Under the pieces are notes generated by a model that was not told the DNA's origin, made no database searches, and saw nothing but the letters and a program-made list of their open reading frames with translations. A stretch of 64,000 bases of DNA from Frankiaceae bacterium (GTDB lineage: Bacteria > Actinomycetota > Actinomycetes > BP-191), in assembly GCA_035556555.1 (NCBI GenBank), contig DATMES010000002.1, forward strand, positions 124,001 through 188,000, given 5' to 3'. The position numbers and the translations under genes were made by a program. Positions 37,291-48,173 of this stretch are shown here, piece after piece (position 1 is the stretch's first letter; each line of letters begins with the position of its first letter).

Positions 37291-37311
37291 GGGGGCGGCG
37301 TACCCGAACGG

Positions 37312-38895
37312 TCACCCCAGCAACCGCGAAACCCACCGCCCGCGTGAGCCGAGGGCGCCGGCGAGCCACTCGCGGTCCGTCGCCGGGATCACCCTGAGCA
37401 GTCGCAGGAACGCCCCATACGCCGCAAGCCCGGCGATACCGCCCACGACGAGCCCAGGCAGCGGCGGCAGTACCTCGACGGCCATCCACGCGATGCCACC
37501 GGCCGCCGTCGCTGCCAGCGCCGCGCGGACGAGGCGCAGCACGCCCCAGTCCGCGCCGGTGGCGAAGCGGCCCGCGTACGCCAGCACGACGAGCGAGGCG
37601 GCGACCTGCGCGGCGGCGTTCGCGATCGCGGCGCCGAACGCCCCGTGCCGCGGCACCAGCGCGAACGCGAACGCGAGGTCCGCCACCGTCCCCGCCACGC
37701 TCGCCGCGAACAGCACCCGCAGCCGCCCGAGTCCCTGCACCAGCCCGAACGCGAGGTGGAACAGCGCCACCGCCGGCACCGCCGCCAACGCCACGAGGAG
37801 GACACGGCCCGCGCGCGAGTACTCGTCGCCGTAGACGAGGTCGACCGCCACCGGCCCGAGCGCCGCGGAGACCGCGGTGAGGGGGAGCGTGAGGACGAGC
37901 AGGAGGCGTACGGAGCGCGCGTAGCCGCGCTTGATGCGGTCGAACGCGCCGGCGCCGTACAGCGTCGCCACCGACCCCGGCACGACGGCCGCGAACGCCT
38001 GCAGCACCCGCGTGATGACCGCGACGCCGCCGAACGCCACGGAGTACAGCGCGATCTCGGAGTCGTCGGCGTAGCGGTCGAGGAAGAGGAACTCCGAGCG
38101 CTGCCAGACGACGTACGCGAACACCGCCTGCAACGACGACGCGACGGCGTACCGCGCGACGTTGCGGTGCAGCGCGGGGTCGCTCGTCGGCGGGCCGGGC
38201 AGCTCGCTCATCGCGACGCCGGCGCGGCGGCGGGTGTAGAGCGTCGCGCCGAGACCGACCAGCGCCTCGACCGCGAACATCGCGGCGATGCCGTAGCCGA
38301 GCGCGAGTACGACGACGGTGCCGGCCATCGCGAACAGGCCCGACCAGACGCCGATCATCGACGACTCGCGCCAGCGCAGCCGCGCGCGGAGCAGCGCGAG
38401 GGGGATGCCTCGCAGGACGTTCATGGCGCAGACGACGCCCGCCAGGATCCACGCCCTGCGCAGCTCGCCGCGGACGACGCCGAGGCTCGCCACGCCCGCG
38501 AATGCCAGCGTGCCGACCGCGACCTCGACCCGCGTGGCCCAGCGGGCGAGGCCGAGGACGTCGCCCGGGCGTTCGCGGCCCAGCGTCTCGGCGGTGAACC
38601 GCAGCACCGCGTCCGGCAGCCCGCGGCTCCACACGAACACCATGGACACCGCGGCCCATGCGATGAAGCTCTGCCGGCCCATGTCGTCGGGCCCGAGGAA
38701 GCGCGCGGCGGCCACTGACTGGACCAGCAGGTAGACCTGGGGGATGAGGTGGCTGAACGCGTTCCACGCGCCGGCGCGCGAGACGTTCTTGCCCGTGGTC
38801 TCGGCGGCGAAGCCCGACAGCTCGGCGGGCTGCGCGTCGAAGGTGTCCTCGAGGTGCGCCTCGGGTTCGTCCCGCGGCCGGTCGCTGGGTGTCAT
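37312..38895 (-). CDS. Polysaccharide/lipid-linked oligosaccharide flippase
   Basis: The 527-residue protein has about 14 membrane helices in the MVF/MATE polysaccharide transporter pattern: NAFSHLIPQVYLLVQSVAAARFLGPDDMGRQSFIAWAAV at the start, then SVAFGGVAVITRVLQAFAAVVPGSVATLYGAG. Such proteins flip undecaprenyl-linked glycans across the membrane. A 45-residue acidic cytosolic tail precedes the first helix. It is divergent from the three-gene operon at 38919, with 23 bases between. Confidence 0.88.
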   Translation of the reverse strand: MTPSDRPRDEPEAHLEDTFDAQPAELSGFAAETTGKNVSRAGAWNAFSHLIPQVYLLVQSVAAARFLGPDDMGRQSFIAWAAVSMVFVWSRGLPDAVLRFTAETLGRERPGDVLGLARWATRVEVAVGTLAFAGVASLGVVRGELRRAWILAGVVCAMNVLRGIPLALLRARLRWRESSMIGVWSGLFAMAGTVVVLALGYGIAAMFAVEALVGLGATLYTRRRAGVAMSELPGPPTSDPALHRNVARYAVASSLQAVFAYVVWQRSEFLFLDRYADDSEIALYSVAFGGVAVITRVLQAFAAVVPGSVATLYGAGAFDRIKRGYARSVRLLLVLTLPLTAVSAALGPVAVDLVYGDEYSRAGRVLLVALAAVPAVALFHLAFGLVQGLGRLRVLFAASVAGTVADLAFAFALVPRHGAFGAAIANAAAQVAASLVVLAYAGRFATGADWGVLRLVRAALAATAAGGIAWMAVEVLPPLPGLVVGGIAGLAAYGAFLRLLRVIPATDREWLAGALGSRGRWVSRLLG

Positions 38896-38918
38896 CGGTG
38901 GGTATCGTCGCGGGGTGA

Positions 38919-40175
38919 GTGATCTTGGGTGATCTGCGGAGCCTACGCCGCGCGGACGCCCGGTTCGTGCTGCCCGCCTTGCCGCGCCGTGCCGTCGTCC
39001 TCGGGGGACTCACCGACTGGTGCGACGGCCTGGAGGCCGCCGGCGTCGAGGTCGTCCCCGCCGGTGCCGTCGCGGACCTCGTCGTCGCGCCCGCCGTCCT
39101 CGCCCGCGACGCCGCGTCACTCGGTGTCGGGACGGTGCTGGTCGACGGCGCCGTACGGTCGCTCCCCGGCATGGCCTCGCGTCGCATCCTGACGCTGCCG
39201 CGGACCAACGCGCCGCAGTACGTCATCGACCCCGCGCAGCGCGCCGCGGCGGCGTACGCCGGCTCGCTGCTGCCGCGTTTCTCGCGCGTCGCGCCGGCCG
39301 TCCTGGCTTCGGGGGTACGGATGCCGCTGGCGGCCGTGACGGTCGGCGCGCGGGTGCCTGGCCGTCCCGCGGTGCTGGCGTCGGCCGCGGAGCTCGGCGC
39401 GGAGCGCGGCGGCGAGTGGTTCCTGGCGCTCGGCTCCGGCGGCGTACGGCGCCGCGCCGTCTTCTACGTCTTCCCGCCCGGCGCGAAGGCGCCCGCGCAG
39501 GTCGTGAAGTTCGGGCGGGTGGCGGGGGAGTACGGCGCGTTCGACCGCGACGAGCGCGGCCTCTCGCTGGCGCTGGCGGCCGGCTCCGTCGTCGCGGACA
39601 AGGCGCCCCGGCTCGTCGGCCGCGGTGACGCGTGCGGGCTGCCGGCCAGCGTCGAGACGGCACTGCCCGGCGTACGGCTCACGCCGTCCGTGGCAGCCGC
39701 CGAGCCGGTCGTGGCGTGGCTGCGCGCGGTCGCTACGTCCACCGTGTCGCGTGGTCCGGACGGGGAGCCGCGGGTGTTCCGGCACGGCGACGTGTTCCCC
39801 GGCAACGTCGTCGTCACCGGCAGCGGCTTCGGGCTCGTCGACTGGGAGCACGCCGACCCGGCGGGGCTTCCGCTCGCGGACCTGCTGTTCTTCGCGGCGC
39901 ACGTGGTCGATGGAGACCCGGTGGAGACGTTCGCGGCCGGGTCGCCGGTGCTCGCGCGCTGGCTGCGCGACGCGGCCGGCGACCTCGGCCTGTCCGGGGA
40001 CCAGGTCGTGGACATCGCGTGGCGGACGTGGGAGGCGCACGGTGGCCGTGCCCGCGCCGCGCGGGTGCTGCGCGAGTCGCTCACCGGGCAGACCGTCGCG
40101 CCGTACCTCCCCGAGCGCATCGCCGACGCCTGGACCTCCGACCCCCGGCTCGGCCGCCACTGGCGGCCGTGGTGA
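38919..40175 (+). CDS. Aminoglycoside-phosphotransferase-like kinase (418 aa)
   Basis: The C-terminal half has the protein-kinase-like APH core: catalytic loop FRHGDVFPGNVVVTGSGFGLVDWEHADPAGLPLADLLFF, with His-Gly-Asp and the metal-binding Asp. The N-terminal half is unusual and contains a methyltransferase-like or nucleotide-fold stretch with RAVVLGGLTDWCDGLEAAG. The substrate may be a sugar or lipid in surface glycan synthesis, given the flippase opposite. GTG 38919 is 10 bases after TATCGT. It is coupled to the ATP-grasp gene. Confidence 0.75.
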   Translation: MILGDLRSLRRADARFVLPALPRRAVVLGGLTDWCDGLEAAGVEVVPAGAVADLVVAPAVLARDAASLGVGTVLVDGAVRSLPGMASRRILTLPRTNAPQYVIDPAQRAAAAYAGSLLPRFSRVAPAVLASGVRMPLAAVTVGARVPGRPAVLASAAELGAERGGEWFLALGSGGVRRRAVFYVFPPGAKAPAQVVKFGRVAGEYGAFDRDERGLSLALAAGSVVADKAPRLVGRGDACGLPASVETALPGVRLTPSVAAAEPVVAWLRAVATSTVSRGPDGEPRVFRHGDVFPGNVVVTGSGFGLVDWEHADPAGLPLADLLFFAAHVVDGDPVETFAAGSPVLARWLRDAAGDLGLSGDQVVDIAWRTWEAHGGRARAARVLRESLTGQTVAPYLPERIADAWTSDPRLGRHWRPW

Positions 40176-41230
40176 TGCGCGCCCTCGTCGTCGGCGACGA
40201 CGACGCGCGCGGCCTCCTCGCGGCGGTGCGTTCGCTGGGCGCCAACGGCTGGCACGTCGGCGTCGTCACGCCGTCGCGGCGTTCGCTGGCGGCGTCGTCG
40301 CGGTGGTGCTCCGCGTGGCATCCGCTGGGCGCTGACGTCGTCGCGTCGGTGGGGGCGGTGAGCGCGTCGTACGACGTCGTCCTCCCCGGTGGCGACGCCG
40401 AGGTGTCCGCGCTCTCGGAGCGCCGTGACGAGGTGGGCTGCGTCGTGCCGTACGGCAGCCGCGAGTCGGTCCGCTGCGTCCTCGACAAGGTCTCGCTGTC
40501 GTCGGCGGCTGTGTCGGCGGGGCTGTCCGTGCCGCGGACGTTCGAGGCCGACGACGTCTCCGGAACGGTCGTCGTGAAGTCCCGCTCGCACGTCGCCGGG
40601 CGCGTCCCGACCGTCGTCACCGACGACCCGGCGGCGGTGCGTACGGCCGTCGCGTCGGCGCGCGCGGCGGGTGCCGAGCCGGTGGTGCAGGAGTGTGTCA
40701 GCGGACCCTTGCTCGCGCTGTCCGTCGTGCTGTGGGACGGCGAGGTGGTGGCCGCGGTGCAGCAGCGTTCGAGCGGTCTCTGGCCGCCGGGCGCGGGTAT
40801 CTCGACGCGCGCGGAGACCGTCCGCGTGGACTCGTCGTTGCAGGAACGCGTCGCGGCGTTGCTGCGCTCGATCGGCTGGGCGGGGCTGGCGCAGGCGCAG
40901 TTCCTCGAACGCGCCGACGGTCCCGTCCTCATCGACGTCAACGGCCGCTGCTACGGCTCCCTCGCGCTCGCCGCCGCGGCCGGCGTGGACCTCGCCGCGG
41001 TGTGGGCGTCGGCGGCGCTGGGACTGCCGTACGTGGCGGGCCCCGCAGTGCCGGGCGTGCGGTACCAGTGGCTGTACGGCGACGTGCGCAGGTCGTGGCG
41101 GGAGTCGCGTTCGGTGCTGCCTGCGGCGGCGTACGCGCGCGGCGCCGCGCACTCCGTCTGGGACCGCCGCGACCCGCGTCCCGGGGTCGCGTACGGCGCG
41201 TCGCTGGCCCGGCTGGCGGCCGCGCGATGA
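40175..41230 (+). CDS. ATP-grasp ligase
   Basis: The 351-residue protein has an N-terminal pre-ATP-grasp fold (RALVVGDDDARGLLAAVRSLGANGWHVGVVT) and an ATP-grasp core with ESVRCVLDKVSLSSAAVSAGLSVPRTF, VVKSRSH and the metal site QAQFLERADGPVLIDVNGRCYGSLALA. It should activate a carboxylate with ATP and join it to an amine or similar nucleophile. ATG 40175 shares a base with the previous stop; GTG 40172 is an alternative. The substrate is unknown. Confidence 0.85.
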   Translation: MRALVVGDDDARGLLAAVRSLGANGWHVGVVTPSRRSLAASSRWCSAWHPLGADVVASVGAVSASYDVVLPGGDAEVSALSERRDEVGCVVPYGSRESVRCVLDKVSLSSAAVSAGLSVPRTFEADDVSGTVVVKSRSHVAGRVPTVVTDDPAAVRTAVASARAAGAEPVVQECVSGPLLALSVVLWDGEVVAAVQQRSSGLWPPGAGISTRAETVRVDSSLQERVAALLRSIGWAGLAQAQFLERADGPVLIDVNGRCYGSLALAAAAGVDLAAVWASAALGLPYVAGPAVPGVRYQWLYGDVRRSWRESRSVLPAAAYARGAAHSVWDRRDPRPGVAYGASLARLAAAR

Positions 41231-42357
41231 CCGCGCTGGAGATCGTCGACGCCGCCGCGCGCGGGCGTGTCCTCGTCACAGGCTCGCTGCCTCCCGAGGG
41301 CCGCGACCTCGACGTGCTGGCGCCTCGCGAGTCGGCGGCGGCGATCGCGGAGGCGTTGGGCGCCAACGGGTTCGTGGCGCGGCGGACGACGTGGGCGCGG
41401 TTCGCGCCGCTCGAGCTGGTGGACGTCCGCGAGCTCGCCGCCGAGGCGATGCTGGCCCGCGCGCTACCGCTCGCCGGCTGCGCGAACGTCTGCCGTCCCG
41501 ACCCCGCGGACGCGCTGCTGCTGGTGGCGCGGGCGTTCGCGCACGACGGGCGGCTGACGGCGTCGCGGCGTACCCGCGCGGAGGCGCCGCTCGACGTCTG
41601 GGCGGAGGCGCGGGCGCGCGGTGGGGAGCGCGAGCTGGCGGCGTTCGCGGAGGCGCTGCGCGAAGGGGAGCCGGTCGTGCCGCGCGTCGCGCGGAAGGTA
41701 CGCAGGGTGCGCGAGGCGGGCGTCGTGACGCTGTCGGGCGTGGACGGCTCCGGCAAGAGCACGCAGGCCGAGCTGCTGCGCGACGCGCTGACCGCGACCG
41801 GCATCGACGCCGTCGTCGAGTGGAACCGGCTGTCCCACGACCGCTGGCTCGACGCGATAGCGCGGCCGGTGAAGAAGGTGCTACGGCGCGGCGGGTCGCG
41901 GCCGGCCACCTCGACCGCGCCGAGCGCGAAGGCCGCCGCTGAGCCTGCCCCCGTGCGCGGCGCGTGGGTCGTCGTCGTCGCGCTCGCGAATGCCCTCGCG
42001 CACCTGCGCAGCGTGCGCGCGCACACCCTCGCAGGCCGCGTCGTGATCTGCGACCGGTACGTCCTCGACTCCGTCGTGCAGCTGTCGACGCAGTACCCGC
42101 CGGGGCTCGGGCGACGGATCGGGATCGCGCTCGTCCGCCTGCTCTCGCCAAGACCGCGGGCGGCGTTCTACCTCGACCTGCCGGCCGAGGTCGCGTGGGA
42201 GCGCAAGCCACGCCCGGGCCGTCGCGAGCGCATGGAACGCCAGGCCGAGCGCTACCGCGAGGAGTGCGAACGCCTCGGCGTCACCAGACTCGACGCGACC
42301 CGTTCCCCCGAGGCCCTCGCCGCCGAGATCGCGACCGAGGTCTGGCGACGGCTCTGA
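41227..42357 (+). CDS. Nucleotidyltransferase-like / thymidylate-kinase-like fusion
   Basis: Residues 1-150 look like a degenerate nucleotidyltransferase (LVTGSLPPEGRDLDVLAP, as in other polysaccharide-cluster proteins). From about 165 a P-loop kinase follows: VVTLSGVDGSGKSTQAELL, ICDRYVLDSVVQL and a lid-like region WERKPRPGRRERMERQ. It resembles thymidylate kinase but the fusion and context suggest phosphorylation of a sugar or lipid intermediate. The ATGA overlap with the ATP-grasp gene shows coupling. Confidence 0.78.
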   Translation: MTALEIVDAAARGRVLVTGSLPPEGRDLDVLAPRESAAAIAEALGANGFVARRTTWARFAPLELVDVRELAAEAMLARALPLAGCANVCRPDPADALLLVARAFAHDGRLTASRRTRAEAPLDVWAEARARGGERELAAFAEALREGEPVVPRVARKVRRVREAGVVTLSGVDGSGKSTQAELLRDALTATGIDAVVEWNRLSHDRWLDAIARPVKKVLRRGGSRPATSTAPSAKAAAEPAPVRGAWVVVVALANALAHLRSVRAHTLAGRVVICDRYVLDSVVQLSTQYPPGLGRRIGIALVRLLSPRPRAAFYLDLPAEVAWERKPRPGRRERMERQAERYREECERLGVTRLDATRSPEALAAEIATEVWRRL

Positions 42358-42471
42358 CGGCTGCGGGCTAGTTCTCCTCCGGCCGTAGTTGCTCATTGCC
42401 GGGTGTCTCGAAGCCATCGACAGTGGTCGCCGACGACGGGGTGAGCACCCCCTGACCACGAGGGGCCGAGC

Positions 42472-42645
42472 ATGAGGTTCGTCATCAACAGCAGCGGCAC
42501 ACAGGTCTACTTCGAGATCCAGTCCGACGGCAACTACGAGACGCTCGCCACGTCCGAGCGGTACAAGGACAAGGACGACGCCCTGGCGGCGATCGACATC
42601 ATCAAGGCTGAGGCCGCGACGGCCCAGACCAAGGACAACACGTAG
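42472..42645 (+). CDS. DUF1508 (YegP-like) small protein, 57 aa
   Basis: The protein is one DUF1508 module (RFVINSSGTQVYFEIQSDGNYETLATSERYKDKDDALAAIDIIK), a small beta-beta-beta-alpha fold; related proteins carry two copies. Function is unclear, with stress-related annotations only. ATG 42472 follows GAGGGG. The stop is 3 bases from the convergent beta-propeller gene. Confidence 0.85.
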   Translation: MRFVINSSGTQVYFEIQSDGNYETLATSERYKDKDDALAAIDIIKAEAATAQTKDNT

Positions 42646-42648
42646 CGG

Positions 42649-43587
42649 CTAGGGCTTCGCGAGGCGGACGACGCCGTACGACGCGGTGTCCGGCGAGGAG
42701 ACGCCGAAGCGCGCGTTGACGGCGTACAGCGACGAGCCGTGCTCCGCGATCGTCGTCGGCACCTGGAACGCCGCGACCTGCGTCCTGCTCACGACGACGC
42801 CGCTCGAGTAGTCGGGCGCGAGCAGGACCTCGGCGACGGCGTTGCCGCGGTTCTGCACGACGTAGACCGTGCGGCCGTCGAGCAGGATGCCGTCGGCGTT
42901 GACGAGGCTCTCGGTGCCGCCCGCCGGGTCGGTCAGCGGGACCAGCGTCGTGACACCGGTCGCGGCGTCGACGACGTAGAGCGCGGCCTTGTTGCTCTGC
43001 ACGACGAACAGCGTCGTGCCGTCGGGCGTCGCGGCGATGCCGTTGACGTTGAAACCGCTGGTGTAGACGAGGTCTCCGGTCAGCGGCAGGACCGTGAGCG
43101 CGCCGGGCGAGCCGTCGGGGTTCCGCGCGATCCGGTAGAGGACGGGGTTGACCGAGTCGGTGAAGTACGCCGCGTCGCGGGTCAGCACGACGTCGTTGAC
43201 GAACGTCGCGGCCGTCGTGAGCGTGTGGACCGCGACGTCGTCGCCGGTCGTGGCGTCGTAGACGAACGCCTTGCCCGTCGGCCCGCCGGCGACCCAGAGC
43301 AGCCCGCGGTCGTACTTCAGCCCGATCGCCGCGCGGCCGCTCTGCGCGGGCACGAGCTCGTCCACGACACCGGTCCGGTAGTCGCCGACGCGCACCGCGC
43401 CGGTGGGGATGGAGCCGACGTAGAACGTCGTCCCCGTCCCGCCCGCGATGCCCTCGGGGCGGTAGCCGTTGGGGAGCGCGATGACGTCGGGCCACGCCGC
43501 GGCGGCGACGGCGGGCGCGGCCTGGACGACGGCGAGACCGGCACCCAGTACGAGGACGGAGAGCGCGGACGAGAGACGACGGGACAC
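42649..43587 (-). CDS. Secreted beta-propeller (SMP-30/NHL-like) protein
   Basis: The 312-residue product has a signal peptide (SSALSVLVLGAGLAVVQAAPAVAA) and repeated propeller blades: GYRPEGIAGGTGTTFYVGSI, ALYVVDAATGVTTLVPLTD, LVNADGILLDGRTVYVVQNRGNAVAEV. It resembles SMP-30/gluconolactonase-like or YncE proteins, but catalytic metal ligands cannot be confirmed. Location is extracytoplasmic. GTG 43587 follows GGAGG. Confidence 0.82.
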   Translation of the reverse strand: MSRRLSSALSVLVLGAGLAVVQAAPAVAAAAWPDVIALPNGYRPEGIAGGTGTTFYVGSIPTGAVRVGDYRTGVVDELVPAQSGRAAIGLKYDRGLLWVAGGPTGKAFVYDATTGDDVAVHTLTTAATFVNDVVLTRDAAYFTDSVNPVLYRIARNPDGSPGALTVLPLTGDLVYTSGFNVNGIAATPDGTTLFVVQSNKAALYVVDAATGVTTLVPLTDPAGGTESLVNADGILLDGRTVYVVQNRGNAVAEVLLAPDYSSGVVVSRTQVAAFQVPTTIAEHGSSLYAVNARFGVSSPDTASYGVVRLAKP

Positions 43588-43643: not shown

Positions 43644-44480
43644 TCAGCCCGTGAGCGCGGCCACGAGGGCGGCGGGGTCGGTCGTCCGCGGCCGGTCGCT
43701 GACCTGGCCGTCGCCCAGCTCGACGACGCGCCACGCGCCGGAGGTCACGCGCGCGAGGTCCACCGTCACGAACGGCAGCCCCAGTGACGCGACCGCAGGC
43801 GCGACGGCTGACACGTCCACGTCGCCCGGCGCCGCGTCGGGCTCGTCGGGGTGCGCGGTGACGAGCGCGCAGCGACCGCCCACCCACCAGGTGCGGACCT
43901 CGGCGCCGGTGAACGGCTCGTACCGCCGCAGCACGAACCCGCCCACGCGGGCGTCGTCACGCACCTCGAGGAACCTCTCGGCCACGCGCCATGCCGCCTC
44001 GGCGTCGGCCACGTCGGGGACGTACGCCGCCTGGTGCCAGTAGTGCTTCGCCGACTTCACGTGGTCGCGCAGCACCGCGGCCCCGCTGCCGATCGCGGCG
44101 CGGCACTCGTCGAAGTCCGAGCGCGTGAACCCGCCGGCGACCGCGCTGAACGGCGTGTGGTCGCGCAGTGCGTCGTACCAGCCGGGCAGCTCGTGCGCGG
44201 TGCGGTACTGGGCTGCCGACGTGCGCAGCGTCGCGCCGCGGTCTCGCGCCGCCGCGTCGAACGCCGCGTACTCCTCGGCGCGCAGCATCCAGCCGCGGTA
44301 CACGACGTCATTGGAGGCCGGCAGCCGCGCGCAGGCCTCCGCCGCGGCACCGGCCGTGAGCGCGTCGTGGTCGACGAGCGCGACGTCGAGTCCCGCGTCG
44401 CGCGCGGCGTCGTACTCCGGGGCGAAGTGCTCGTCGGGGCGGCGCGGCCTGAGCGGGTCGCTCGGGACGACCAGCAGCAT
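43644..44480 (-). CDS. R2K-clade (DUF4343-like) ATP-grasp protein
   Basis: The 278-residue product has VVYRGWMLRAEEYAAFDAAARDRG, LRDHVKSAKHYWHQAAYVPD, FVLRRYEPFTGAEVRTWWVGG and VTVDLARVTSGAWRVVELGDGQVSD, matching the R2K family of ATP-grasp proteins. These probably ligate amino groups or peptides; biological roles are poorly known. The ATG shares a base with the cupin stop (TGATG), so both are translated together. This is a second, unrelated ATP-grasp 3 kb from the first. Confidence 0.78.
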   Translation of the reverse strand: MLLVVPSDPLRPRRPDEHFAPEYDAARDAGLDVALVDHDALTAGAAAEACARLPASNDVVYRGWMLRAEEYAAFDAAARDRGATLRTSAAQYRTAHELPGWYDALRDHTPFSAVAGGFTRSDFDECRAAIGSGAAVLRDHVKSAKHYWHQAAYVPDVADAEAAWRVAERFLEVRDDARVGGFVLRRYEPFTGAEVRTWWVGGRCALVTAHPDEPDAAPGDVDVSAVAPAVASLGLPFVTVDLARVTSGAWRVVELGDGQVSDRPRTTDPAALVAALTG

Positions 44481-46613: not shown

Positions 46614-48173
46614 CTACGACTTGTACACGAAGACCGGCAGGCCGATCACCAGTTTCGAGAACAGCCTGTTCATCGCGGGGTTCGTGATCCTGATGCAGCC
46701 GTGGCTGTCGGGGTACGCCGGCACGAAGCCGCTGCCGTGGATGGCATACCCGCCGGAGGCGAAGTACGCCGGCCGCCACAGCGTGCCGAGGCGGCTCACA
46801 CGCTCGCCGTCGATGCGGTGGAAGATCCGGAACGACCCCGTCGGCGTCGTCGCGCGCTGCGTCTCGCCGTCGACGGTGAACAGCTGGTTGTTGCCGGAGG
46901 AGATGTCGAGGATGCGCGCCACGGCGCCGTTGACGGCGTAGTAGAGGACCTGCTTGGTGAGGTCGGCCTCGACCCACGCGCCGGAGCGCGAGTAGCGCAG
47001 CCGCGGCCGGACAGGCGCCTTCATCTTCGAGCGCGTCGCGGCGTCGATGGTGCCGTTGACCTTGAGGCCGTTGACCTTCTGGAACGCCATCGTCGCGTGC
47101 ACGGTGTCGTAGCCGAACGTCCCGCTGATCGTCCCCACGTCGTACTTCAGCGCCGCGAGCCGCTTCTGCGCCGTGGTGACGTCGGCGCCGGACATGCCGG
47201 AACGCAGCGTCCGGGCGATGGTCTTGACGCCGAACACCGTCGACTTGGCGGTCGTGTGGTCGGCGTGCGCGCCCATGATGACGCGGTAGTAGCGGGTGCC
47301 GATGGTCGACCACTTGATGGCGTACGACGTCCGCGACTCCGACGTCAGCGTGCGGTACGCGACGTGGTGCCAGGCGCCGTCGTAGTAGTGCTGCAGCGAG
47401 ACGCGGCGGCCGGCGTGGCTCGGCGAGACGAGGACGCGGGCGGTGGCGGCGACGTTCTGCTCGACGGTGTTGGTCGTCATGCCGATCGTGACCTTCGGCG
47501 CGACGAGCGTCTGCAGCGCGGCCTTGCTCGTCGCGAGCTGCGGCGTGGCCGCGTGCTCGAGGTACCAGCGCGTGTTGAGCAGCAGGCCGCCGGTCGTGTA
47601 CGACGCGACGCCGGCGGCGTTGGTGCGCACGCGGTAGACGAGGGAGTACGCATCCTCGGTCGCGCGGCGGCGGTGCACCTCGACCAGCGCGCCGGGGACG
47701 ACGGCGCCGGTGTCGCTGCGCTTGAGCGTCGCCTTGAGGACGGTCTTGGCGCCGTACGTCACGGTCACCGGCGTCGTGGACGTCGCGGTCATCGTCGTGA
47801 CGACGGGCGGCACGGGGTCGGCGGTCACCGACACCGGCGCGGAGAACTCGTCGGCGGTGTTGCGGGTGAAGACGGAGAAGCCGTACGTCGTGCCGTTGGT
47901 CAGCCCGGTGACCGTGACGGTCGTGCCGGTGCCGGCGTACGCCTGCGTGCCGTCGGCGACGGTCGCGGGCGCGGCGCTCGGCGCCCAGCGGACGAGGACG
48001 CCGCCGAAGTCGGCGTCGGAAGGGTTGGTCCACGTCAGCGTCACCTGCCCGCTCGCGGGCGAAGGCGCGAGCCCCGTGACGGGGGTCGGCGGCGCGGCGG
48101 CGTACGCCGGGGAGACGGTGAGCGTGACGGCCGCGGCGACACCCGCGGCCAGCAGAGACGCGAAGCGGGCCAT
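46614..48173 (-). CDS. Secreted L,D-transpeptidase with FnIII and PG-binding domains
   Basis: The 519-residue product has a signal peptide (ending SPAYA), an FnIII domain (TPVTGLAPSPASGQVTLTWTNPSDADFGG...GLTNGTTYGFSVFTRN), further beta domains, a peptidoglycan-binding repeat (GMSGADVTTAQKRLAALKYDVGTISGTFG), and a YkuD catalytic domain ending IHGSGFVPAYPDSHGCIRITNP with catalytic Cys. It forms 3-3 peptidoglycan cross-links or attaches proteins in the envelope. TAGACT lies 9 bases before the ATG. Confidence 0.93.
   Translation of the reverse strand: MARFASLLAAGVAAAVTLTVSPAYAAAPPTPVTGLAPSPASGQVTLTWTNPSDADFGGVLVRWAPSAAPATVADGTQAYAGTGTTVTVTGLTNGTTYGFSVFTRNTADEFSAPVSVTADPVPPVVTTMTATSTTPVTVTYGAKTVLKATLKRSDTGAVVPGALVEVHRRRATEDAYSLVYRVRTNAAGVASYTTGGLLLNTRWYLEHAATPQLATSKAALQTLVAPKVTIGMTTNTVEQNVAATARVLVSPSHAGRRVSLQHYYDGAWHHVAYRTLTSESRTSYAIKWSTIGTRYYRVIMGAHADHTTAKSTVFGVKTIARTLRSGMSGADVTTAQKRLAALKYDVGTISGTFGYDTVHATMAFQKVNGLKVNGTIDAATRSKMKAPVRPRLRYSRSGAWVEADLTKQVLYYAVNGAVARILDISSGNNQLFTVDGETQRATTPTGSFRIFHRIDGERVSRLGTLWRPAYFASGGYAIHGSGFVPAYPDSHGCIRITNPAMNRLFSKLVIGLPVFVYKS

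Follow-up and report, generated by a model that had tools for sequence, protein, structure and literature searches.

The locus raises the question of what a polysaccharide flippase and three enzymes might accomplish together where no glycosyltransferase is recognised around them. In the window, the whole 64,000-nucleotide stretch of DNA analysed, the flippase is a 527-residue protein of the Wzx/MOP superfamily encoded on the reverse strand (37312-38895) and recognised by its Pfam matches and its identity to homologues. Divergent from it on the forward strand, with 23 bp between the two starts, is the gene for an APH-fold small-molecule kinase of 418 residues with an N-terminal extension of about 150 residues (38919-40175). 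This gene is followed by one for an ATP-grasp ligase resembling carbamoyl phosphate synthase (40172 or 40175 to 41230) and one for a 376-residue fusion of a nucleotidyltransferase (NTase)-like N-domain with a thymidylate-kinase (TMK)-like domain (41227-42357). The first junction reads GTGATG, where the stop codon TGA of the kinase occupies 40173-40175 and the ATP-grasp gene starts at GTG 40172 or ATG 40175; the second reads ATGA, with a start at 41227 and a stop at 41228-41230. Reading frames, strands and coordinates agree with the initial annotation, which had described a flippase facing three enzyme genes joined by stop-start overlaps. No promoter or terminator was seen in a scan of the divergent flippase/kinase region.

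The same annotation had recognised no glycosyltransferase or polymerase gene in the window, and profile searches extend this observation beyond it. PF00534 and PF04932 have no match across the entire 228-kb contig of the window, and none of the stop-to-stop reading frames in the 124 kb surrounding the block matches GT2, GT4, Wzy or priming transferase (PGT) profiles. By deviation of codon usage, the four genes rank 34, 42, 8 and 17 of 50 in the window; as this is ordinary for the window, a recent foreign acquisition of the block was rejected.

The flippase scores 31.3 bits against PF13440 (cut-off 23) and 34.6 bits against MatE (cut-off 24.9), and its homologues, which sit within clusters of Wzy and glycosyltransferase genes, include a Wzx of locus L037 (40% identity), the Wzx of genome G012 (38%) and the flippase half of a fusion protein in the congener G002 (45%). 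The kinase matches the APH family (PF01636) at 33.6 bits (cut-off 23.2), and its GTG start at 38919 is backed by the G012 homologue, which aligns from the first residues. K197, H289-x-D291, N296 and D308-W-E310 are invariant across four homologues, the catalytic motifs HGDVFPGN...DWE lying at 39783-39848 on the forward strand. A profile search of the PDB with the kinase gave weak matches to macrolide, aminoglycoside and protein kinases among the matches listed; LicA is absent among them, which does not exclude a LicA identity. The structure model of the kinase, with a pLDDT of 37, was not used. The ATP-grasp protein matches PF15632 at 41.7 bits (cut-off 29.1), and its profile matches the large chain of carbamoyl phosphate synthetase in the PDB (E 2.4e-7). 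Six of the seven residues of its metal/ATP motif LIDVNGR (40928-40948, forward strand) are invariant among four homologues.

The fusion protein matches PF02223 at 50.5 bits (cut-off 27) and falls below the dTMP-kinase equivalog TIGR00041, with 39.4 bits against a cut-off of 83.25. In its predicted model (pLDDT 84), residues 163-376 match dTMP kinases with Z up to 19.7 (5h70, rmsd 2.5, 185 residues aligned). All its motifs lie on the forward strand. The TMK-like domain carries a Walker A motif, SGVDGSGKS (41734-41760), with a core that is invariant in 14 homologues, and a DRY motif (42052-42060), in which D276 and R277 are invariant and Y278 nearly so in the same number. In the N-domain, the motif GSLPPEGRDLD (41281-41313) contains G19, S20, P22, P23, R26, D27, L28 and D29, all invariant in 12 homologues. 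PF14907, a nucleotidyltransferase family of the Pol-beta type, matches this domain weakly in 6 of 12 members (best E 3e-4) and gives no match to the window protein. A profile of the domain has no match among solved structures in the PDB, and structure searches with the whole model recover the kinase half alone, with no match to the N-domain. Its candidate assignment as an NTase is suggested by the invariant GS-x6-DLD motif together with the weak PF14907 matches.

Related loci in Actinomycetota reveal the company that these genes usually keep. Twelve of the 15 loci with a full-length NTase-TMK gene carry Wzx, Wzy, a priming transferase or GT4 within the stretch examined, and several of the twelve are full exopolysaccharide clusters. 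The order APH kinase, ATP-grasp, NTase-TMK is repeated in L034 and L035. In eight loci, the window included, the ATP-grasp gene lies immediately upstream of NTase-TMK, with a 4-nt overlap in six of them. Some of the relatives' polysaccharide clusters that hold genes of the block also encode a priming transferase. The ATP-grasp/NTase-TMK pair is also found without recognised polysaccharide genes nearby in L041, where it adjoins methylmalonyl-CoA mutase and carboxyltransferase genes, and in L042. Since NTase-TMK is missing from G002, where both kinase and flippase are present, and since gene order varies, the trio is no obligate unit. The initial annotation had proposed a new unit that dispenses with glycosyltransferases, a proposal to be abandoned if relatives held the same genes inside a standard capsule cluster. 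The neighbourhood comparison finds them in clusters with glycosyltransferases and Wzy, and that part of the proposal is not supported; membership in surface-glycan biosynthesis, with probable action on a lipid-linked precursor, is.

The kinase and the flippase are coupled in several ways. They stand head to head in the window, in G012 (locus L015) and in L036, in the latter two inside polysaccharide clusters with glycosyltransferases and a Wzy polymerase. They share one operon in Nocardioides donggukensis (L044), and in the congener G002 their homologues form a single fusion protein of 890 residues. The flippase tree and the kinase tree have six loci and the fusion in common, and both sort these into two groups of identical membership. 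Among 296 genomes of the class the fusion occurs in G002 only, G012 and the window having separate divergent genes, and none was found in a search of plasmids.

Enzymes that could supply the missing steps are encoded elsewhere in the same genome, which has 19 PF00534 matches, with GT2 and GT4 on contigs C20 and C34. C34 carries a deacetylase-Wzy-GT4-GT4-Wzz locus (Wzy_C 73.8 bits, Wzz 37 bits), and C20 a priming transferase-glycosyltransferase-Wzy locus (Wzy_C 52.2 bits) together with a Wzz/BY-kinase; the PGT-type protein of C20 was identified with a local profile at E 1.5e-68. Neither locus has a Wzx. In a search of the genome confined to PF13440 and PF01943, PF13440 finds the window flippase and one MurJ-like protein, and PF01943 the window flippase only. 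On the window's contig the Wzx is separate from Wzy and glycosyltransferases; in both congeners they are co-located. Such co-location is a usual feature of the pathway, not an obligatory one. G002 has a Wzy operon with GT4 that is orthologous to that of C34, and its kinase-flippase fusion fills the space that separates Wzz from the conserved gene after it, a position that is empty in C34. In G001, a different Wzx lies immediately upstream of Wzy in its operon. The window shares its gene order with both congeners up to 37290; beyond this point they diverge and the block is absent from both, and in G001 collinearity returns at the gene at 42649.

Taken together, these observations make it probable that the four genes are a displaced export and decoration module of a Wzx/Wzy-dependent exopolysaccharide pathway, acting in trans. 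The reading is supported by the polysaccharide genes around most NTase-TMK loci and the recurring order of trio and pair, and by the coupling of flippase and kinase as divergent neighbours, operon neighbours and a fusion with matching tree groups. It is supported also by the lack of a Wzx in C34, where G002 has its fusion beside the orthologous operon and G001 has a Wzx of its own upstream of Wzy, by the standing of the window flippase as the only Wzx-family match besides the MurJ-like one, and by the collinearity of both congeners up to a site where the block is absent. A precedent is offered by pneumococcus, in which the decoration of teichoic acid is carried out by LicA, a kinase, together with LicC and LicD, and undecorated units are blocked by the flippase TacF (PMC13385700). 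While placement in a polysaccharide pathway is well supported, action in trans is a more tentative step, the block and the C34 and C20 loci being on separate contigs, and the chemistry of the trio is inferred from folds and intact motifs. Glycosyltransferases and the priming transferase encoded on C20 and C34 would build a repeat unit linked to undecaprenyl diphosphate. The cytoplasmic trio would decorate this unit, or a substituent meant for it: the kinase may add phosphate to a sugar hydroxyl or a small alcohol, the ATP-grasp ligase may form a bond of amide (amino-acid-like) type, and activation or further phosphorylation of the substituent may fall to the NTase-TMK protein. By analogy with LicA and TacF, the kinase probably phosphorylates a substituent on the cargo of the flippase. 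The flippase would then transfer the unit across the membrane, perhaps favouring the phosphorylated form, and Wzy and Wzz of C34 or C20 would polymerise it. More tentatively, a phosphorylated lipid-linked glycan or substituent may license flipping wherever an APH-fold kinase is coupled to Wzx in some actinobacteria, with the ATP-grasp and NTase-TMK proteins completing an undescribed decoration pathway.

Other readings must be set against the displaced module. The close coupling to the flippase, which extends to fusion and is kept in G002 without NTase-TMK, could mean that the kinase acts on the flippase itself or on the lipid carrier, converting undecaprenol to undecaprenyl phosphate, so that the link to Wzx is one of carrier supply or regulation. 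The APH fold, however, is typical of kinases for soluble alcohols, aminoglycosides and choline, and in the window the kinase stands as a protein of its own, encoded together with ATP-grasp and NTase-TMK in one operon of overlapping genes, which makes this reading unlikely. A stand-alone surface-glycan or ligation system needing no glycosyltransferases would fit the 124 kb free of glycosyltransferase and polymerase genes and the equally solitary pair of L041. Yet it has only a small chance of being right, given the polysaccharide neighbourhoods of 12 of the 15 related loci, the glycosyltransferases and Wzx-less Wzy loci of its own genome, and the homologous flippase that adjoins a Wzy operon in G002.

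The orphan location and the absence of the block from the same site in two congeners would also be expected if the block were what is left of a polysaccharide cluster that had been transferred or rearranged and was now decaying without function. The chance of this is slighter again, since four frames are intact, catalytic motifs are conserved, start-stop overlaps are retained, codon usage is ordinary for the window, and the block holds that single Wzx-family match besides the MurJ-like protein. Least probable of all is that the trio makes a small nucleoside- or peptide-like metabolite for which the MATE/MOP-family transporter is the exporter. The transporter does match MatE, PF15632 ATP-grasps are named after a metabolite pathway with Ter operons, and the relatives in L041 and L042 have no polysaccharide neighbours; against this, PF13440 is above its cut-off and the nearest relatives are Wzx genes inside Wzy and glycosyltransferase clusters.

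If the displaced-module reading is true, a flippase found apart with unusual enzymes may represent one half of a polysaccharide pathway that has been split, a point to bear in mind in judging whether loci of this kind are complete. The natural kinase-Wzx fusion would likewise provide a simple handle on cargo checking by MOP flippases, a topic for which pneumococcal TacF is one of the proteins studied. Across Actinomycetota, the set of kinase, ATP-grasp and NTase-TMK genes is found repeatedly, with no product assigned to it. A literature search on the gene set, the kinase-flippase fusion and NTP_transf_5 in polysaccharide clusters returned nothing direct, and the fusion and the conserved trio appear to be new with respect to the literature searched.

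Among known systems, the TMK-like half shares its fold, Walker A and DRY motifs with housekeeping thymidylate kinase, and differs in its NTase-like N-domain, its location in polysaccharide clusters and its sub-cut-off dTMP-kinase score. Operons of the CA_C2195 type for modified carbohydrates, as covered in the available part of PMC4000134, also place an ATP-grasp (aminoacyl) ligase in surface-polysaccharide clusters, several with an O-antigen or teichoic-type exporter; that part describes no kinase-flippase coupling, and the window block has no recognised CA_C2195 homologue and different NTases. The pneumococcal LicA/LicC/LicD-TacF system, in which a small-molecule kinase of protein-kinase fold and a nucleotidyltransferase work with a MOP flippase able to recognise the phosphorylated substituent before flipping, would be a functional model for the block, and no kinase-flippase fusion is described for it in the available text (PMC13385700). 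In contrast, the Pfam scan recognised no LicD domain or choline transporter in the four genes, the ATP-grasp enzyme and TMK-like domain are additional, and nothing points to choline as the kinase substrate. Close likeness is also seen to Wzx/Wzy-dependent exopolysaccharide clusters of Actinomycetota, such as L044 of Nocardioides donggukensis, L034, L036 and L040 from metagenome-assembled genomes, and G012, which share the gene types of the block, though not all four in each, and in two cases its divergent flippase/kinase arrangement. Nocardioides donggukensis, a cultivable relative, has all four gene types together in its cluster. Whereas these clusters hold a priming transferase, GT4, Wzy, deacetylase, GH5/39 and GNAT genes, the window holds the block alone, with the remainder on other contigs.

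The initial annotation placed the four genes of the block exactly, and each open reading frame was re-located at its coordinates. A Wzx-type flippase on the minus strand (37312-38895; PF13440/MatE) starts 23 bp from a divergent plus-strand operon comprising an APH-fold kinase (38919-40175; APH), an ATP-grasp protein (start 40172 or 40175, end 41230; PF15632) and an NTase-TMK protein, here gene C (41227-42357; PF02223), with every Pfam match over its cut-off. The operon junctions read GTGATG (kinase/ATP-grasp) and ATGA (ATP-grasp/gene C), and codon usage is ordinary. The kinase keeps the N-lobe lysine, the HxD..N catalytic loop and DWE (four homologues), six of the seven residues of the ATP-grasp motif LIDVNGR are invariant, and gene C retains GSLPPEGRDLD (12 homologues) as well as the P-loop and DR(Y) (14 homologues). 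The structure model of gene C is good (pLDDT 84); residues 163-376 resemble dTMP kinases (Z 19.7, rmsd 2.5, 185 aligned), and the protein scores far under the housekeeping dTMP-kinase cut-off. Its N-terminal domain is a putative nucleotidyltransferase, on the basis of the motif and because half of the homologues match PF14907 weakly.

Profile searches bore out the absence of glycosyltransferase and polymerase genes from the window: its contig gave neither a PF00534 glycosyltransferase nor a Wzy polymerase, and the 124 kb surrounding the block gave no match to any glycosyltransferase, polymerase or priming transferase in a search that did recover its positive controls from the genome's other contigs. 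The further suggestion of a new glycosyltransferase-free unit did not survive a survey of relatives. Gene C is rare, with matches in 12 of 60 relatives, mostly to the kinase half only, and N-domain matches in 5 of 396 genomes of the phylum, this one included. Scanning the collection and searching genomes brought the loci with full-length or near full-length gene C to 15, all from Actinomycetota. Twelve have Wzx, Wzy, a priming transferase or GT4 within the fetched stretch, some in full clusters; the exceptions are L041, L042 and L035, the last on a contig that stops at its kinase gene. By a rough estimate, a random 20-kb stretch would hold a PF00534 match in about 1/20 cases, since the 4-Mb genome has 19 in about ten places. 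Full clusters additionally carry polysaccharide deacetylase, GH5/39 and GNAT (PF13480) genes, with DegT and DUF4012 genes in L034. The kinase>ATP-grasp>NTase-TMK order recurs in L034 and L035, and ATP-grasp lies immediately 5' of gene C in eight loci, counting the window. Finding these genes embedded in the polysaccharide clusters of relatives is the outcome that the initial annotation had itself set as evidence against its suggestion.

Some loci have other neighbors. At L041:7148-9531 (L030, genome G321), methylmalonyl-CoA mutase and carboxyltransferase genes flank the ATP-grasp/gene C pair, and no polysaccharide genes are recognised nearby. In a Frankiaceae MAG (L002:260-1402, plus strand; L017/L043), gene C has lost its NTase motif and adjoins a protein that by eye resembles an HPr-kinase-like P-loop protein. 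CHAT-domain/TPR proteins with a ~210-aa partner occupy the same flank of polysaccharide clusters in Quadrisphaera (L040:670-3525) and Nocardioides (L044:2216-5059).

Sequence and gene arrangement argue that the kinase and flippase belong together. The window, the related genome G012 (42 bp between the genes) and L036 have them as divergent neighbors, and in L044 they share one operon with a 4-nt overlap. In the congener G002, a single uninterrupted 890-aa frame (L107:13674-16346, minus strand) encodes an APH-fold kinase followed by a Wzx flippase; identity to the window proteins is 38% for the kinase part (301 aa) and 45% for the flippase part (495 aa). Both the flippase and kinase trees set window/G002/G012/L037 apart from L034/L036/L044.

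Elsewhere in the genome, contig C34 carries deacetylase-Wzy-GT4-GT4-Wzz with an adjoining glycosyl hydrolase, and contig C20 carries PGT, GT2s, GT4s, Wzy and Wzz/BY-kinase. Both lack Wzx: across the genome PF01943 matches only the window flippase, and PF13440 only this and a MurJ-like one. The C34 operon and its flanks are conserved in both congeners. The interval separating Wzz from the next conserved gene measures ~120 bp in C34, and in G002 it contains GT4 and the kinase-flippase fusion; G001 has a different Wzx directly upstream of Wzy. Thus, both congeners keep Wzx at the operon, and the window species instead has a flippase of the G002 family at a distant site. The 228-kb contig extends >60 kb beyond the block on each side, which puts a minimum of that distance between the block and C34 or C20.

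In both congeners gene order matches that of the window from about 18.7-21 kb as far as 37290, with other genes beyond, which argues that the block is a cassette at a variable site. Collinearity returns in G001 with homologues of 42649-43587 and 46614-48173. Replacement genes with Pfam matches include regulators, a BNR protein, a subtilase, a radical SAM protein and others, and none of those with matches is a polysaccharide gene. The variable stretch, 37291-42648 in the window, follows a DUF1206 gene that the congener loci L091 and L092 share; there it is followed by radical SAM, subtilase and polyketide cyclase in G002 and by sigma factor, histidine kinase and BNR protein in G001. The variable block also includes a 57-aa ORF (42472-42645, plus strand; begins MRFVINSSGTQVYFEIQSDGNYETL), which may resemble DUF1508/YegP-type proteins. 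A second, unrelated ATP-grasp gene (R2K_3, 151 bits) lies nearby at 43644-44480 on the minus strand, and no match to it was found in G001 or G002.

The trio probably decorates a lipid-linked repeat unit, or a substituent of it, and the flippase would then carry the decorated unit to a Wzy encoded elsewhere in the genome. Wzx/Wzy pathways with decoration enzymes are already known. In the literature searched, whose coverage leaves out most subscription journals, no description was found of a kinase fused to Wzx, of the kinase/ATP-grasp/NTase-TMK set that recurs here or of the split locus. An ATP-grasp ligase in modified-carbohydrate operons is on earlier record (PMC4000134). The closest working model, as a works-like comparison only, is that of pneumococcus: choline is phosphorylated by LicA, activated by LicC and attached by LicD, and TacF recognises the phosphate and rejects undecorated units (PMC13385700). 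Unlike that system, the block has no LicD among its four genes, and choline is not implied as its substrate.
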